From: Cytophagales bacterium
GTDB lineage: Bacteria; Bacteroidota; Bacteroidia; Cytophagales; 172606-1
NCBI GenBank assembly: GCA_030446715.1
Contig: JAUJMU010000001.1
Coordinates: 225,297-289,296 of the forward strand
Direction: 5' to 3'
Length of the DNA: 64,000 nucleotides
Made by a program: the position numbers and the translations under genes. The notes under the pieces were generated by a model, which was not told where the DNA came from, did no database searches, and was given only the letters and a program-made list of their open reading frames with translations. Positions 9,412 through 54,054 of this stretch are shown here, one piece after another (position 1 is the stretch's first letter; the number at the start of each line of letters is the position of its first letter).

Positions 9412-9999
9412 GTGCATACTCCCCCGCCAGAAGAAAGCAGCTACGTACTCGATGCAGCTGAACGCATGTTTCTGGAGCGGGGCTACGCGGGAACCAAGTT
9501 GCGGGACTTAGCCAACAGACTTCAGATAAAACCGGCTTCCTTGTACTACCACGCTCCGGGAGGTAAGGAAGAACTCTGGCAACTGGTAATGGACCGGGTA
9601 TTGAAACGGCATCGTTCTCAACTGGTTATTGCTGCCGAAAAGGCCGGTCCTGCCCTGCGCGGTCAACTCGAGGCCATGGCTGGCTGGTTGATTTCCCAAC
9701 CGCCCGTTAACATGCTTACGCTGATTTCCACCCGGCTTCACGATCCGGACCGGCAGGCTTCTTCCCAATTAGCTGACCGCCTGTACCAGGCAATGATGGA
9801 ACCTGTCGTCCATATTTTAAAAGCAGCCGTGGTACGGGGCGAAATACGGCAGGTGGAGCCTGACCTGGTAGCCGGTACTTTTCTGGTTTCAATCAATGGC
9901 CTGCTCCCTCTGGCTCAGAACGGGCAACTGCCCCGGCCTGCCGGGGAACTGGCGCGGGAACTTATTGGCATACTGCTGGATGGGCTGGTACCGCGATAA
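9412..9999 (+). CDS. TetR/AcrR-family regulator
   Basis: This 195-residue protein has an N-terminal TetR helix-turn-helix: ERMFLERGYAGTKLRDLANRL with QIKPASLYYHAPGGKEELW. A helical ligand-binding region with no recognisable ligand follows. The start is GTG at 9412, reading VHTPPPEESSYVLDAAERMF, and there is no in-frame ATG before the HTH. It lies 85 bases upstream of the TspO-like gene, and the gap contains a perfect palindrome suitable as an operator, so it probably regulates tspO. Confidence 0.8.
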   Translation: MHTPPPEESSYVLDAAERMFLERGYAGTKLRDLANRLQIKPASLYYHAPGGKEELWQLVMDRVLKRHRSQLVIAAEKAGPALRGQLEAMAGWLISQPPVNMLTLISTRLHDPDRQASSQLADRLYQAMMEPVVHILKAAVVRGEIRQVEPDLVAGTFLVSINGLLPLAQNGQLPRPAGELARELIGILLDGLVPR

Positions 10000-10037
10000 A
10001 ATCTGATAAAAATAAATGCTGTTTATACAAACTTATC

Positions 10038-10053
10038 TAACTAAAATTAGTTA
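10038..10053. promoter_or_regulatory. Palindromic operator candidate between tetR and tspO
   Basis: TAACTAA and TTAGTTA arms with a 2-base centre form a perfect 16-bp palindrome in the short gap between the TetR regulator and the TspO gene. The size and position fit a TetR-family binding site. Binding is inferred. Confidence 0.5.
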
Positions 10054-10084
10054 AAATACTATATTCACCTTAAACCATCTTTTT

Positions 10085-10624
10085 ATGCAAGACCAACAAT
10101 TAAGTTCACCCCGGCCAGCTCTGACTTCCCGGTCAGCTCCTTCCTATAAGTGGTGGCAGGCCGGTCTGGTGGGTGTGGCCGCCAATGTCATCAGTGCCTT
10201 ACCGGCTGGGTATAATGGCAATGAAGCTTTTTATAACAATCTGATCCAGCCCAGAATCGCGCCTCCCGACTGGGCTTTTGCTCCCGTGTGGTTATTCAAT
10301 AATGTGACTTCCCTGTATGCAGGTTTACTGGTTGCCAACTTACCTGGAGCTACCCCCGGCAGGAAAGCATTTTTAGTACTTGAGGGAACCGGGTGGGTGT
10401 TGTTCGCCGCCTTCAGTCCGTTGTATTTCGGGTTAAAGAGCCCGGTTTTGGGGGCCATTGATACGGCAGCGGGTTTAGGGGTAACGGCTGCCAGCCTGGC
10501 TGTAGCTGCGAGAATTCACAAAAAAGCTGCCCTGTGCATTCTGCCCCGTTTCGTCTGGCTGACGCTGGCCACCTACGTGTCAGTTTATGTGGCGGTCAAA
10601 AACCGGGATGCCCTGTTTGACTAA
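10085..10624 (+). CDS. tspO: TspO/MBR family membrane protein
   Basis: This 179-residue protein has about five membrane helices. TspO hallmarks are present: GYNGNEAFYNNLIQPRIAPPDW with the Px(W)AFAPVW element (PPDWAFAPVWLFNN, residues about 57-70), and a C-terminal LPRFVWLTLATYVSVYVAV helix. TspO proteins bind porphyrins and tetrapyrroles and act in stress signalling. The N-terminal 20 residues are unlike the family. It follows the TetR gene with a palindrome between them. Confidence 0.8.
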   Translation: MQDQQLSSPRPALTSRSAPSYKWWQAGLVGVAANVISALPAGYNGNEAFYNNLIQPRIAPPDWAFAPVWLFNNVTSLYAGLLVANLPGATPGRKAFLVLEGTGWVLFAAFSPLYFGLKSPVLGAIDTAAGLGVTAASLAVAARIHKKAALCILPRFVWLTLATYVSVYVAVKNRDALFD

Positions 10625-48468: not shown

Positions 48469-48813
48469 TTACAGGTTGCCGGCCATGCTCATCATATTCC
48501 GGCACTCTTCGGCGCAGCGGCGGCAGGCTTCGGCACACCGCTGGCAGTGGTCATGGCCGTGCTTTTCGCATTCTTCTCCGCAGGCGTCACAAACCCGGGC
48601 GCACAAATCACATATTTCGCCGGCGAAGTTGCTGTCACGGGCCATATAAGCGGCGGCCAGTGAGCAAATCTGGGCGCAGTCCATGTCGAGCCGGATGCAG
48701 CGGGCCATCATTTTTACGTGTTCCTCCTGCAGGCAGGAAGCGGCACAATGGTTACAGGCGGTTGCACAGGCCAGGCAGGCGTCAATGCAGCTTTGGAACT
48801 TCAGATTTGTCAT
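48469..48813 (-). CDS. Csp-type copper storage protein
   Basis: The 114-residue protein is a four-helix-bundle, Cys-rich protein: 19 cysteines, most in CxxxC or CxxC spacing (CIDACLACATACNHCAASC, CDLCARVCDACGEEC). There is no signal peptide, so it fits cytosolic Csp3, which holds many Cu(I) ions in its bundle. It lies between the HMA chaperone and the His/Met-rich outer-membrane protein, which makes it the buffer of this module. Confidence 0.85.
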   Translation of the reverse strand: MTNLKFQSCIDACLACATACNHCAASCLQEEHVKMMARCIRLDMDCAQICSLAAAYMARDSNFAGEICDLCARVCDACGEECEKHGHDHCQRCAEACRRCAEECRNMMSMAGNL

Positions 48814-48906: not shown

Positions 48907-49116
48907 CTACAGCTTTTCCGCCTTAAAACCGGCAGTCTGCACGGCCTCTACGATGCGGCGGGGCTCCACGTCTTCAAATTCTACCGTCAGGACTTTATCC
49001 GGACTGGCAGTATCTACCTGCCACTGCCGGACGCCGTCCACGTTGTTGAGGTGGGGCGTTACCTGGGCTACGCAGCCGCCGCATTTGATGTTGGTCTTGA
49101 ATTTCAGCGTTTTCAT
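48907..49116 (-). CDS. HMA-type copper chaperone
   Basis: The 69-residue protein is a single heavy-metal-associated domain with the Cu(I) site IKCGGCV (residues 11-17), KTLKFKTNIK before it and VQTAGFKAEKL at the end. It probably hands Cu(I) to CopA, which lies upstream in the module. A word-repeat spacer and a hairpin separate it from copA. Confidence 0.85.
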   Translation of the reverse strand: MKTLKFKTNIKCGGCVAQVTPHLNNVDGVRQWQVDTASPDKVLTVEFEDVEPRRIVEAVQTAGFKAEKL

Positions 49117-49168: not shown

Positions 49169-49350
49169 TTTTACTCCCCTGATCAGTACCATGTTTACGG
49201 GTTTTGTCGGACAAAGGTAAAAACCAGTGCTGCCTCCGGCTTTACATCATTCCGGCTATGGTTTATATAATTTTTTGCTGAAGCCGGGTTCAATCGTCAG
49301 CACCTTATCCTATCCTATGCAGGACTTTCTCAAAAGAGGGAACTGTTGTG

Positions 49351-49400: not shown

Positions 49401-51667
49401 TTACAGTTTCGCTGCCTTCAGCCGGAGGCTGTTGGTCACTACGAATACCGAACTTAGCGCCATGGCGGCACCGGCAATCATGGGGTTGAGCAGGAAGCCG
49501 TTGACCGGGTAAAGCAGACCGGCGGCAATGGGTATGCCGATCAGATTGTAGATAAAGGCCCAGAACAGGTTCTGCCGGATGGTTTTCACGGTCAGGCCGG
49601 AGAGCCGGAGGGCCTTCGGCACCATGTTGAGGTCGGAGGTGATCAGGGTCATTTTGGCTACGTCCATGGCAATATCGGAGCCCCGGCCCATGGCAATGCT
49701 TACGTCGGCCTGCGCCAGCGCCTGCGAATCGTTGATGCCGTCTCCGACCATGGCAACGGTTTTGCCCTGCGCCTGCAAGGTTTTGATAAAGTCAGCTTTG
49801 CCGGAAGGCATCACCTCCGCCTGGTAGTGCCGGATGCCGGCCTGCTCCGCCACGGCCCGGGCCGTCCGGGCGTTGTCGCCGGTGAGCATGTACACCTCAA
49901 TGCCCTGTGCCTGCAGCTTCGCTACGGCCTGCTGAGAGGTTTCTTTCAGGCGGTCGGCAATGGCCAGAACCGCCAGCACTTCCTTGCCCGAAGCGAAATA
50001 AATCACCGTTTTTGCCTCTTCCTGCAGCCGCTTTGCCTGCGTCTGTATGGATTCGTTCACGGGAATTTCGTAATCCTGCAGCAATTGGCGGTTGCCCACC
50101 AGATAGGTTTCGCCGCCGTAGCCGGCCTGCACGCCTTTGCCGGTAATGCTGGTGAAGTTTTGGAGGGCAAGATCGGAAGGAGATTCATTTTTAAGCCGCC
50201 GCACCACTGCCTCGGCCAGCGGGTGCTCCGAACTGACTTCAATGGCCCGCAGAATGGCAGCATACTTCTCCTGCTGCGCCTCGCCGGCCAGCCATACGAG
50301 GTCGGTTACTCCGGGCTTGCCTTCGGTGATGGTGCCGGTTTTGTCCAGCACGACCGCATTTACCCGTGGCCCAGCTCCAGACTTTCCGCGTCACGGATCA
50401 GGATGTTGCTTTGGGCACCTTTGCCGACGCCCACCATAATGGCCGTCGGCGTAGCGAGGCCCAAAGCGCAGGGGCAGGCAATGACCAGCACGGTCACCAT
50501 GGCCAGCAGGGCGTGGGTAAGGGCATTGTTGCCGCCCAGCACCATCCATGCAATGAAGCTGAGCAGGGCAATGCCAATGACCACGGGCACGAAAATACCC
50601 GCCACTCTGTCAACCAGCTTCTGCACGGGAGCTTTGCTGCCCTGCGCCTCCTGCACCATCCGGATGATCTGCGCCAGCACGGTGTCACCGCCGATTTTTC
50701 GGGCTTCCAGCCGGAAGCTGCCCTTCTGGTTCACAGTTCCGGCAAATACCTTGTCTCCGGCTTTTTTCGCAACCGGCACCGGCTCGCCGCTGATCATGCT
50801 TTCGTCTACGTACGAGCTGCCGGCTTTTACTTCGCCGTCTACCGGCACTTTTTCGCCGGGACGGACAACAATAATGTCGCCCAGGGTCACTTTCTCCACG
50901 GGAATCTCCTTTTCTGCGCCGCCGGTCACGGTCCGCACCGTTTTGGGCTGCAGCCCCATCAGCTTCTTCAGCGCCGCCGAAGTGTTGGATTTGGCCCGTT
51001 CTTCGAGCAGCTTACCCAATAGGATAAAGGCAATGATCACCGTAGCCGCTTCAAAATACACGTGCGGGTGAATGCCCCGGCTGTGCCAGAACTGTGGAAA
51101 GAAAGTCGTAAAGGCACTGAACAGGAAAGCAATGCCGGTGCTCAGCGCCACCAGCGTATCCATATTGGCCTTGCCGTGCCGGAACTGCTTGTAGGCATTG
51201 ATATAGAAGTTACGGCCCAGCCACAGCACCGGCAGCGACAGTACCATCATGATCGGATTGGCGTAAGGCATGTCCATCAGAAACATGCCGATGACCACCA
51301 CCGGCACCGACAGGATCGCCGCCCAGATGGTTTTCTTTTTCAGCGCCTGGTAATGGTTTTGGCGGGCTTCCTCCTGCTTTCCGGCAGCATTTTCCTGCTC
51401 AATAATCAGGTCGTAGCCGGCCGACTGCACGGCCTGCCGCATCTGGGGCAGGGAAATGGCGGCGGGATCATATTCCACCCAGGCATTCTGGGAGGCAAAG
51501 TTTACGCCGGCATCACGCACACCAGACTGTGCTTTCAGCATAGACTCCACGCTTACCGCACAGGCCGCGCAGGACATATCCGTGACGGGCAGCATTATTT
51601 TGGTAAAGGCTCCTTTGGCAGCCTTTTTTGTTTTTGAATTTTCGGGAATCGCTTCGTCCGTTTTCAT
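49401..51667 (-). pseudogene. copA: Copper-exporting P-type ATPase, one frame break
   Basis: From ATG 51667 the product would be about 755 residues. It has an N-terminal HMA domain ([12 protein letters not shown]), membrane helices with the CPC motif ([17 protein letters not shown]), a phosphorylation motif DKTGTITEG and GDGINDSQALAQADV. The frame breaks at CCC/GGG 50363-50365, between LELGH and [10 protein letters not shown]. One extra base restores it. It should pump Cu(I) out of the cytosol. The lesion may be a sequence error. Confidence 0.88.
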
Positions 51668-51839
51668 CTTCGTAATGGTTTGGATGAGGTAACGATGCAA
51701 AGGTAACACCGTCTGGACCCGTAGTCTTTACATAATTGACGGAGCTTGTTATACCTTTTTTGTCTTACTTCACTGTGCTTTAACATAGGTTTAGGTACGG
51801 CTGGTTCGGATTTTGCGGAGGCGGACTTTACCGGAAGGG

Positions 51840-51910: not shown

Positions 51911-52468
51911 TTAAATTTTCTCCCGGTACTGCGAGGGAGATAAGCCGGTTACCTTCCGGAACTGATTGGAAAGGTGATGTACACTGCTGTAATTGAGCCG
52001 GAAAGCAATTTCGGTAAAAGACAAATCACTGTTCTTCAGCAAGTCCTGTACTTTGCCGACGCGCCGCCGGATCAGGTACTGCTCAAGGGTAATGCCTTCA
52101 GTTTGGGAGAAAAGGGCGCTGACGGTGCCGTAATCGGTGTGTAAGGCCTCTGTCACCATTTGGGAGAAGTTGTGATTCGCGTGGTCAGATCCGGAAAGGT
52201 GCTCCTCCACCAGTTCCTTTACCCAGGCTACGGTCCGCGACTGCTTGTCGTCCAGCAGGGAGAATCCTTCCTCCTCCAGCCGCCGGGAGACTTCTTTCAG
52301 GGAAGCGTCAGCTGTTGGAGAGGTGTAAGATACCTGGCCCAGATCAATTCCGGAAACGTTAAACCCTGCGTCCATGAAGATTTCCTTTACCGTTTCGATG
52401 CAGCGGCGGCAAACCATGCCCTTGATCCTTGCTTTTGCTTCCATCTCCATTTTTGTTTCAGATTTCAT
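51911..52468 (-). CDS. HMA-AraC fusion regulator, copy 2
   Basis: The 185-residue protein joins an N-terminal heavy-metal-associated-like domain (KGMVCRRCIETVKEIFMDAG, MxCxxC at residues about 18-23, about residues 12-75) to a C-terminal AraC DNA-binding domain (LRRRVGKVQDLLKNSDLSFT, AFRLNYSSVHHLSNQFRKVT). Its ATG overlaps the end of copy 1 by 11 bases, so the two are coupled. It lies next to copA, pointing to a Cu-responsive regulator. Metal sensing is inferred. Confidence 0.75.
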   Translation of the reverse strand: MKSETKMEMEAKARIKGMVCRRCIETVKEIFMDAGFNVSGIDLGQVSYTSPTADASLKEVSRRLEEEGFSLLDDKQSRTVAWVKELVEEHLSGSDHANHNFSQMVTEALHTDYGTVSALFSQTEGITLEQYLIRRRVGKVQDLLKNSDLSFTEIAFRLNYSSVHHLSNQFRKVTGLSPSQYREKI

Positions 52469-53024
52469 CCAGCGGCCGGCGTTTCTGCTCTTTCAGCTCT
52501 TTGAAATGGGATGGCGTCAGGCCGGTCACCTTGCGGAACTGACCTGACAGGTGCTGCACGCTGCTGTAGCCCAGCTGGCCGGCAATCTGGCTGAGGGTGA
52601 GTTCGTCGTACACCAGCAATTCTTTCACCCGTTCGATGCGCTGAAGAATGATGTATTTTTCGATGGTGATGCCCTCGGCCGCCGAGAAGGAGGCGCTGAG
52701 CCACGCGTAATCCATGCCCAGCTTTTCGGCAATCAGATGCGAAAAGTTCAGGTGCGTCTGCCCGCCGTAATGCACCAGCTCCACTACCCTATCCTTGATT
52801 TTCTGAATTATCCACTCTCTGCGGTCGTCGACCAACCCGAACCCGTGAGCCGCCAGTGCCGCCCGGATGGGTTCTTTGTCGAGACTATCTACCGCTTCCT
52901 CTAAGGTTGCCTCGCCCAGCGTCACCTGCCCGGGATGCAGTCCCAGCGACTGCAGCTGAGCAGTTACCACCCGGATGCAGCGGGGGCAAACCATGTTTTT
53001 GATATGAAGCGTGTGGTTTTCCAA
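52458..53024 (-). CDS. HMA-AraC fusion regulator, copy 1
   Basis: From the likely TTG start at 53024 (MENHTLHIKNMVCPRC) the protein is 188 residues. It has an HMA-like domain with MVCPRC and then the same AraC part: IQKIKDRVVELVHY, YIILQRIERVKELLVYDELT, QIAGQLGYSSVQHLSGQFRK. An open frame extends to 53117, but that would add a run unlike the HMA start. It is a paralogue of the next gene, sharing both domains. No ATG lies at the HMA boundary. Confidence 0.72.
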   Translation of the reverse strand: MENHTLHIKNMVCPRCIRVVTAQLQSLGLHPGQVTLGEATLEEAVDSLDKEPIRAALAAHGFGLVDDRREWIIQKIKDRVVELVHYGGQTHLNFSHLIAEKLGMDYAWLSASFSAAEGITIEKYIILQRIERVKELLVYDELTLSQIAGQLGYSSVQHLSGQFRKVTGLTPSHFKELKEQKRRPLDEI

Positions 53025-53049: not shown

Positions 53050-53818
53050 TCAGGCGGCGGTACGCATTCTTTTGCGCATCCGCCGGATCGTGCGGGAACT
53101 GAGATAATAAAGCACAAACCCCGACAAAATCGTAAACAGTCCGAAAATGGAGAAGGTTCTCAGCAGCAGGTTGCCGAAGTGGTCGCGGGAAGAATAATCC
53201 ATCGTGTGCAGCATCCACAGAAAGTCAAACACCCGCCACTTCTCGTTCCGGAACTTCTGCACGGTGCCCAGTTCGGCGGCTACGTAAACGGGGGTGCGGC
53301 TGGGGTGCCTGAACCGGACGGCATATGCCGGCAGCGGATTTTGCCGGTACCCGTGGTGGGCTTCGGTTGTCGTGAGGTACTCGGCCGCTGTCCACTTCAG
53401 GTGTGCCTTTGAACCGGTTGAGGGCAAGCCCAATGGCCTCCTGACGGGTCAGCGGCCCGCGCATCTTGCCCGTAGCGGCCATTGCCAGCTGCACTTTGCG
53501 GGCATCCTTTGCGCCGGTCTGCGCCTGATACACCACCTGGTATACCGGCTCACCAAACAGATCAATCAGCTGCATTGATACCAGTGACAGGGACGGATGC
53601 ATTTCCTGCAGGCTATCGAGCACCACTCCCGGCGACACCAACGCCTGCCCGACCCTGATCAGAGGTGCCGGTAGCCGCTGATGGTCACCGTGAATCTCAT
53701 CCATGTCGCTCCAGCTGAAACAGAGGCCTCCGGCCGTCCACAGCAGAAACTGGATTCCCGGCACCAGCCCCAGATACCAGTGGACCCGGCGCATACGTAT
53801 ATGCATATTATGATTCAT
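53050..53818 (-). pseudogene. PepSY-type membrane protein, one frame break
   Basis: From ATG 53818 (MNHNMHIRMRRVHWYLGLVP) the first frame gives a membrane helix (YLGLVPGIQFLLWTAGGLCF) and a periplasmic PepSY-like part (ALVSPGVVLDSLQEMHPSLS, LTRQEAIGLALNRF). The second frame gives GTVQKFRNEKWRVFDFLWML, HTMDYSSRDHFGNLLL and a final helix FSIFGLFTILSGFVLYYLSS. The break is near 53392-53393. It resembles PepSY-TM proteins that often sit by metal genes. It could be a metal reductase partner. Confidence 0.7.
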
Positions 53819-53829
53819 TGCTCTGAAAA

Positions 53830-54054
53830 TTATTGTGCCTGTGAACCTGGCTGGCAGCAGTTGCCCGACTGCACCGAAGGGCATTTGGCGGTTCCGTACG
53901 AACAGAATACGCAGCAATGGCCCTCCTGCGGACGCAGGATGGTGCGGCAGCCTTCACATTCGTAAAAATACTGACAGGAGTCTTCCGGCATGATTTCTTC
54001 TTTCCGGTAACCGCACTGCGGGCAACTGAGCACTGAAACCAGCATTTCTTTCAT
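53830..54054 (-). CDS. GDCCVxC-type Cys-rich small protein
   Basis: The 74-residue protein has 11 cysteines in the pattern SCPQCGYRKEEIMPEDSCQY, YECEGCRTILRP, then GHCCVFCSYGTAKCP. It matches the GDCCVxC family, often beside metal-resistance genes and sometimes a selenoprotein; here the site is GHCC, with His in place of Asp and no UGA. It opens the copper module. Confidence 0.75.
   Translation of the reverse strand: MKEMLVSVLSCPQCGYRKEEIMPEDSCQYFYECEGCRTILRPQEGHCCVFCSYGTAKCPSVQSGNCCQPGSQAQ

Follow-up and report, generated by a model that had tools for sequence, protein, structure and literature searches.

Genes A and B, two overlapping genes of a Cytophagales bacterium, are predicted to encode one-component, Cu(I)-responsive activators of the Bacteroidota which act on a 35-bp direct-repeat site located before copper genes; from sequence comparison and structure models we put the probability of this reading at a little under 0.8. 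The computed basis comprises the domains of the proteins, a conserved thiol site, a neighbourhood of copper genes, and a conserved DNA site with its spacing. We infer that the metal is Cu(I), that its loading alters DNA binding and results in activation, and that the site is bound by the HMA-AraC protein itself.

Organization of the region

In the window (the whole stretch of 64,000 nucleotides that was analysed) A and B are adjacent open reading frames on the minus strand, overlapping by 11 bases (52458-52468), just as the initial annotation had placed them, and the MVCRRC and MVCPRC motifs ascribed to them are both present (Table 1). The open frame of B reaches upstream to at least 53117, and the two proteins are 37% identical. 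The neighbours (copA, a PepSY-like gene and a "GHCCVFC" gene) also lie where they had been described, but two of them, copA and the PepSY-like gene, are each divided between two frames in this assembly, and the last encodes a GDCCVxC-domain protein (NF041374). The frameshift in copA (about 50351-50365, minus strand) falls in the catalytic core and represents either an assembly error or a broken gene. The PepSY-like gene (53050-53917, minus strand) is likewise in two frames, this second split lying about 3 kb from that of copA. Unrelated species also have GDCCVxC-type genes close to the regulator: besides the one in the window, assigned with NCBIfam, they were recognized by eye at L013 (6665-6865) and L070 (4097-4303).

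Table 1. Coordinates (window positions) of the genes, domains and candidate regulatory sites.
Feature	Coordinates	Strand	Basis
Gene A, HMA-AraC regulator, ATG start, 185 aa, MVCRRC	51911..52468	-	ORF list, Pfam, alignment, model
HMA-type domain of A, about residues 9-73	52250..52444	-	model; family profile
AraC DNA-binding domain of A, about residues 92-185	51914..52195	-	Pfam, model
C-R-R-C codons of A	52400..52411	-	sequence
Gene B, HMA-AraC regulator, 188 aa from TTG at 53024, MVCPRC	52458..53024	-	ORF list, Pfam, alignment, model
HMA-type domain of B, about residues 1-66	52827..53024	-	family profile, model, fold comparison
AraC DNA-binding domain of B, about residues 87-181	52482..52766	-	Pfam, model, fold comparison
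C-P-R-C codons of B	52977..52988	-	sequence
copA, two frames (50360-51709, 49401-50351); likely ATG near 51667	49401..51709	-	ORFs, Pfam
Small HMA protein, 69 aa, probable copper chaperone	48907..49116	-	ORFs, Pfam, NCBIfam
DUF326, Csp1-like copper storage protein	48469..48813	-	Pfam, NCBIfam
GDCCVxC-domain protein	53830..54054	-	NCBIfam NF041374, E 7.8e-28
Candidate operator before small HMA gene, direct repeat, 28.4 bits	49240..49274	-	R1, matrix scan, spacing
Promoter box TACCTTTG, 20 bases past operator of small HMA gene	49212..49219	-	spacing analysis
Candidate operator before copA, 21-bp period, weak (9.5 bits), position and spacing right	51726..51760	-	matrix scan, spacing
Promoter box TACCTTTG, 20 bases past copA operator	51698..51705	-	spacing analysis

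Domain composition of the regulators

The Pfam models HTH_18 and HTH_AraC scored above cut-off in A and B taken singly and matched all 86 near relatives examined. The DNA-binding part of both proteins corresponds to AraC models and chains, not to a MerR, CsoR, CopY, ArsR or TetR domain. For the N-terminal part, the Pfam HMA model gave no match to A or B singly at E ≤ 1 and reached E ≤ 0.01 in 10 of the 86 members taken singly, while in NCBIfam the best HMA-type matches, to CopZ models, were weak (E 0.009 for A, 0.07 for B). The TRASH domain likewise had no Pfam match in either protein at E ≤ 1. A profile of the 86 relatives, when compared with solved structures, matched HMA domains with its N-terminal part (Copper-transporting ATPase 2 [E 3.6e-10], CopA [1p6t; 1.4e-7] and CopZ [2qif; 5.7e-5]) and AraC domains with its C-terminal part [8.8e-13]. 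The stand-alone CopZ-like proteins of three relatives also match the HMA-AraC family profile (E 2e-12 to 5e-11). Single-sequence Pfam scans alone would miss the HMA domain of A and B.

The AlphaFold models of A and B (mean pLDDT 91.9 and 87.9, respectively) show a beta-alpha-beta-beta-alpha-beta arrangement followed by a long helix and the AraC domain; the HMA fold that had been proposed is seen in both. In fold comparisons of B, for which Foldseek was also run, residues 67-188 resembled AraC-domain chains (Z up to 12.0) and the first 68 residues resembled CopZ, Atx1 and GolB (Z 6.6-6.8; CopZ and Atx1 at 6.7-6.8) and a domain of AcuB (6.4). Since AcuB scores close to CopZ and Atx1, the assignment to the HMA domains rests mainly on sequence. 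Across the alignment of 86 near relatives the M, both C and the R of the motif do not vary; the motif reads N-M-V-C-x-R-C, with Arg in 115 of 125 C-x-x-C members. At the level of sequence and model, A and B are each confirmed as an HMA-type domain with a C-x-R-C site joined to an AraC-type DNA-binding domain.

Association with copper genes

From 558 relatives of B the 80 best were taken for a study of their loci, some of which are partial, and 46 of the 80 contain a copA-like ATPase gene; a frequent order on one strand is regulator, copA, small HMA protein. Among the C-x-x-C members of these near-relative loci a copA-like gene lies within 5 kb in 51 of 84, and any copper or metal marker in 73 of 84. 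When the 40 genomes with the strongest regulator matches in a search of 296 were considered, a regulator among the matches listed was found within 5 kb of a copA-like ATPase in 30, compared with 0.23 expected on random placement. These figures tie the relatives strongly to copper genes, in keeping with the initial annotation.

The C-x-R-C site might instead respond to a different metal that binds thiols (Zn, Cd, Hg or Ag) or to redox signals (oxidants). HMA domains can bind several soft metals, a few members adjoin CzcD-type genes (5 loci in one neighbour cluster), and the GDCCVxC genes recur at L013 and L070. We consider this unlikely in view of the neighbours and site targets, which are chiefly copA, CopZ-like, CusCBA-type, multicopper oxidase, HYC_CC and DUF3347-type genes.

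Candidate operator and promoter geometry

The gaps between the regulator and the next gene on the same strand numbered 68, of which 33 are 79-92 bp long, and a conserved block is visible in them. Three gaps of less than 30 bp were dropped and the remaining 65 searched for motifs, the best having a log-likelihood of 822 against 110-121 in three shuffled sets. This direct-repeat motif occurs in 50 of the 65 gaps, 15 being without it according to the model. A site model was built from 47 of the 50 sites, which align without gaps to give the 35-bp consensus TAAATcTTAyAAATCatttCCaaAATtntryAACA. The self-similarity of the matrix is 0.198 at a shift of 21 and at most 0.072 at the other shifts from 15 to 25, while the best inverted value is 0.127. 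A TTTG sequence starts 24 bases past the site in 44 of the 50 cases and 23 bases past it in three; it forms the end of a TAnnTTTG box in which the first base is T in 18 of 50. Judged from these alignments, the direct repeat with its 21-bp period is the likely target site of the HMA-AraC regulator.

An operator upstream of the regulator gene itself was also sought, in 91 of 113 regulator places (the remainder having under 40 bases left), and the motif search returned only the general TAnnTTTG box and leftover coding sequence. Alignment of these upstream regions on the box (27 rows) revealed no further strong conservation. An RNA element in the gap was set aside as well, the repeats being direct rather than inverted and lying upstream of the promoter box.

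In the mechanism that we propose, the N-terminal HMA domain would take cytoplasmic Cu(I) via its C-x-R-C site in the manner of CopZ, and the C-terminal AraC domain would bind the 35-bp site as two direct-repeat half-sites 21 bp apart. The nearer half-site would stand in for the -33 promoter element and keep a constant spacing to the TTTG box at -7. Once loaded with copper, the protein, probably by dimerising or by a rearrangement of its domains, would recruit RNA polymerase and so activate copA, the gene of the small HMA chaperone and further copper genes. Since no separate dimerisation domain is visible, the HMA domain may supply this function. AraC activates araBAD from half-sites 21 bp apart, the nearer of which is at the -35 element (araI). 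It is from the AraC-like geometry of the site that we infer a Cu(I)-responsive activator, and activation is our first choice because the half-sites are 21 bp apart with the nearer at -33/-35, as in AraC at araBAD.

The same sensor and site could also serve a repressor, the apo protein lying over -33 and blocking RNA polymerase until copper releases it, as with CsoR or CopY; the nearer half-site does sit where the -33 element would be. We regard this as improbable: AraC proteins are mostly activators, the spacing of TTTG is fixed to one base, and the scarcity of T at the first position of the box fits a weak promoter which needs an activator.

Sites in the window and its genome

Site calls in this genome were based on the matrix scan, position, period and spacing. 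The best matrix score in 20 shuffled windows was 16.9 bits, a value well exceeded by the candidate operator before the small HMA gene, while that before copA lies within the range of the shuffled sequences. The copA site ranks fourth in the window by matrix, behind two places without a known role among others, and would not stand alone. The likely ATG of copA lies downstream of the promoter box. A pattern which matches only these two places in the window was written after they had been seen, and so describes them and tests nothing. R1 models the site from sequence alone; its single match in the window is at the small HMA gene, and in the whole genome it has nine matches at E 0.02-10, none of which is significant.

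Two targets had been suggested initially. For copA the suggestion is supported by a candidate site that is weak in the window and strong in many relatives. The 54054 gene fared differently, there being no site near it among the six best-scoring places of the window; the strong site precedes the small HMA gene instead.

Elsewhere in this genome, a 15.1-bit place is found directly behind the stop codon of a third copy of the regulator (L255, about 9791-10398). Near-identical sites of 24.6 and 21.9 bits (L257, 7071-7105, minus strand; L258, 7045-7079, plus strand) precede copies of a small gene beginning MTPPDFALLNSG; from its position behind these sites, this gene is a possible further target of the regulator.

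Relatives without the cysteine pair

The initial annotation had raised the loss of the two Cys in relatives as a point against the idea. Loss does occur: one or both are absent in 44 of 85 members of a wider sample (L186-L265), which have Ser for the first Cys (MVSLRC, MVSNRC) or no motif at all (DINTIC, DFNALC). The Cys-less members are, however, mostly on separate branches, and the motif is invariant in the 86 near relatives. They retain the sequence pattern of the fold and the AraC domain; L188 (7048-8260) and L226 (7023-7574) are examples in which the AraC domain is kept, mostly without copper neighbours.

The 60 stretches L186-L245 were chosen from a listing biased towards the relatives of a Cys-less member; in them, copA is near 8 of 24 C-x-x-C members and 2 of 43 others (p=0.003), and any copper marker is near 10 of 24 and 5 of 43, respectively (p=0.012); 14 of the 24 C-x-x-C members have no copper marker within 5 kb. 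Twenty further stretches, partly chosen for closeness to copA, were kept out of these tests; with them the values for copA become 19 of 41 against 2 of 44. A sign test on Cys loss and copper neighbours could use four independent pairs and had no power, with five changes on the tree. Since so few evolutionary events are involved, the link between loss of the Cys and loss of copper neighbours is suggestive only. The MACESC group (L214, L221, L228, L237, L243 and L244) has kept both Cys and has no copper marker within 5 kb; its members may respond to a different metal or act on genes farther away.

An operator-like site precedes two Cys-less family members (L143 and L152), a hint of a common DNA site. 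One could therefore suppose that the HMA domain is a dimerisation or delivery module and that the copper signal comes from another protein, the Cys-less relatives having kept both the fold pattern and, in these two cases, the site. Two observations make such a non-sensing role quite improbable: all 86 near relatives have kept the two Cys and the Arg, and most Cys-less members lack copper neighbours (2 of 43 near copA against 8 of 24).

Distribution of the regulator and its site in the Bacteroidota

An HMA-AraC match at E ≤ 1e-25 is present in 142 of the 296 sampled Bacteroidota genomes, with up to five per genome. R1 was scanned against the same 296 genomes with stricter filters (E ≤ 0.001) and gave 28 sites in 26 genomes, all of them regulator-positive (p=1.4e-9), although the species scanned may overlap with the training loci. 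At this threshold none of the 154 regulator-negative genomes had a site, nor did 116 of the 142 regulator-positive ones. The regulator is directly upstream of 20 of the 28 sites, and TTTG is found at 23-25 in 22 of them. The first recognized gene downstream is a copper or metal marker for 21 sites (copA-type 15, HMA-DoxX 3, and one each of multicopper oxidase, HMA protein and HYC_CC protein) and a match to the family profile for five (three CopZ-like genes followed by copA, and two Cys-less regulators), with two having neither. Some sites also stand before multicopper oxidase, HYC_CC and HMA genes distant from the regulator.

That the conserved block is mere promoter sequence or background among close relatives is very improbable, for while it adjoins the -7 box and the model was trained on loci of the closest kin of B, regulator upstream regions show the -7 box only, all 26 genomes with strong sites carry the regulator, and sites occur before copper genes away from it. 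Since only 26 of 142 positive genomes match and the genome of the window has no significant match, either the motif drifts or R1 is too narrow.

Comparison with known systems

AraC of Escherichia coli, of the AraC/XylS family, has the same two-HTH C-terminal DNA-binding domain as A and B, and its half-site spacing of 21 bp is that of the site predicted here; its N-terminal domain senses arabinose, whereas A and B have an HMA domain in this place. CopZ, Atx1 and the HMA domains of copper ATPases share the beta-alpha-beta-beta-alpha-beta fold with M-x-C-x-x-C at helix 1, the family of A and B differing in N-M-V-C-x-R-C, with its near-fixed Arg, and in the fused DNA-binding domain. CueR, CsoR, CopY, BxmR and ComR are one-component bacterial copper regulators, as A and B are predicted to be, with other DNA-binding folds and metal sites.

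The archaeal CopR/CopT, as described in the accessible part of the source (PMC7830388), is also a one-component copper regulator encoded beside copA and combining a DNA-binding with a chaperone-type metal domain. It differs in being archaeal and in having the reverse order, an N-terminal HTH and a C-terminal TRASH domain (same part of PMC7830388). YbtA belongs to the AraC family and has a copper-linked input, and its CXXC double Ser mutant lost activity; it differs in needing Cu(II)-yersiniabactin, in controlling siderophore genes and in that the accessible text describes a Cys-rich ligand-binding domain and no HMA domain (PMC8725597). A review of copper regulators, in its accessible part, lists CueR, CopY, CsoR, BxmR and ComR among one-component types, reports for its few marine Bacteroidota only two-component and ECF-type copper regulators and no classical one-component homologue, and contains no occurrence of "AraC" (PMC10141476).

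A literature search, with most subscription journals outside its reach, found no description of the HMA-AraC build. This is consistent with the earlier remark that no well-described copper regulator is built in this way; in the matches listed, its members routinely carry AraC-family or helix-turn-helix names. On the sequence evidence the family is probably a widespread and undescribed type of bacterial copper switch; it would be an AraC-branch metalloregulator of the one-component kind whose sensor domain is new. Because 142 of 296 genomes carry the family and the survey of marine bacteria, in the part of it available, found no classical one-component sensor in its few Bacteroidota (PMC10141476), it is a good candidate for the missing copper sensor of the Bacteroidota.

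A wider proposal, to which we give somewhat less than an even chance, is that these fusions of a CopZ-type domain with an AraC activator are the main cytoplasmic Cu(I) sensors of much of the Bacteroidota. They may be loaded by CopZ through HMA-HMA transfer, so reading the load of the chaperone and not free copper; tandem A and B would bind the half-sites as a heterodimer, and the Cys-less sisters would keep the operator and read another signal. The use of a chaperone domain as sensor raises the question of whether copper is read by exchange with CopZ. The predicted operator, the promoter geometry and the natural Cys-less paralogues make metal and mechanism directly testable, and a short copper-responsive promoter is a prospective tool for the Bacteroidota.

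Gene copies, phylogeny and plasmids

The genome of the window has three copies of the regulator, A, B and one on another contig which is 48% identical to B and has copA-, CusB-, RND- and DUF3347-type markers within 5 kb (L255). In a FastTree phylogeny of the family, which has several long branches and gave warnings, the two regulators of a tandem pair in Rhodocytophaga aerolata have different partners, the second grouping with A (support 99) and the first with B (support 86). Since A and B group separately with the members of that pair, the A/B pair is older than this genome. The two may differ in metal or pair as a heterodimer, as had been suggested at the outset; beyond their being old, separate lineages in the tree, nothing speaks in favour of this suggestion.

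At L130, L145 and L146 the gene order is regulator, site, stand-alone CopZ-like gene, copA; this CopZ-like gene, kin to the HMA domain of the regulator, is perhaps a trace of the origin of the fusion.

Plasmids also carry the regulator, with 31 records at E ≤ 1e-20; among the 15 matches listed the proteins are named AraC-family, helix-turn-helix or response regulator. R1 gave nothing on two of three plasmid loci (L266 and L268), where similar repeats are readable by eye. The three plasmid regions inspected contain P-type ATPase, multicopper oxidase, RND efflux or Csp-type genes, and on these Hymenobacter, Runella and Pontibacter plasmids (L266, L267 and L268) the regulator rides within copper/heavy-metal islands.
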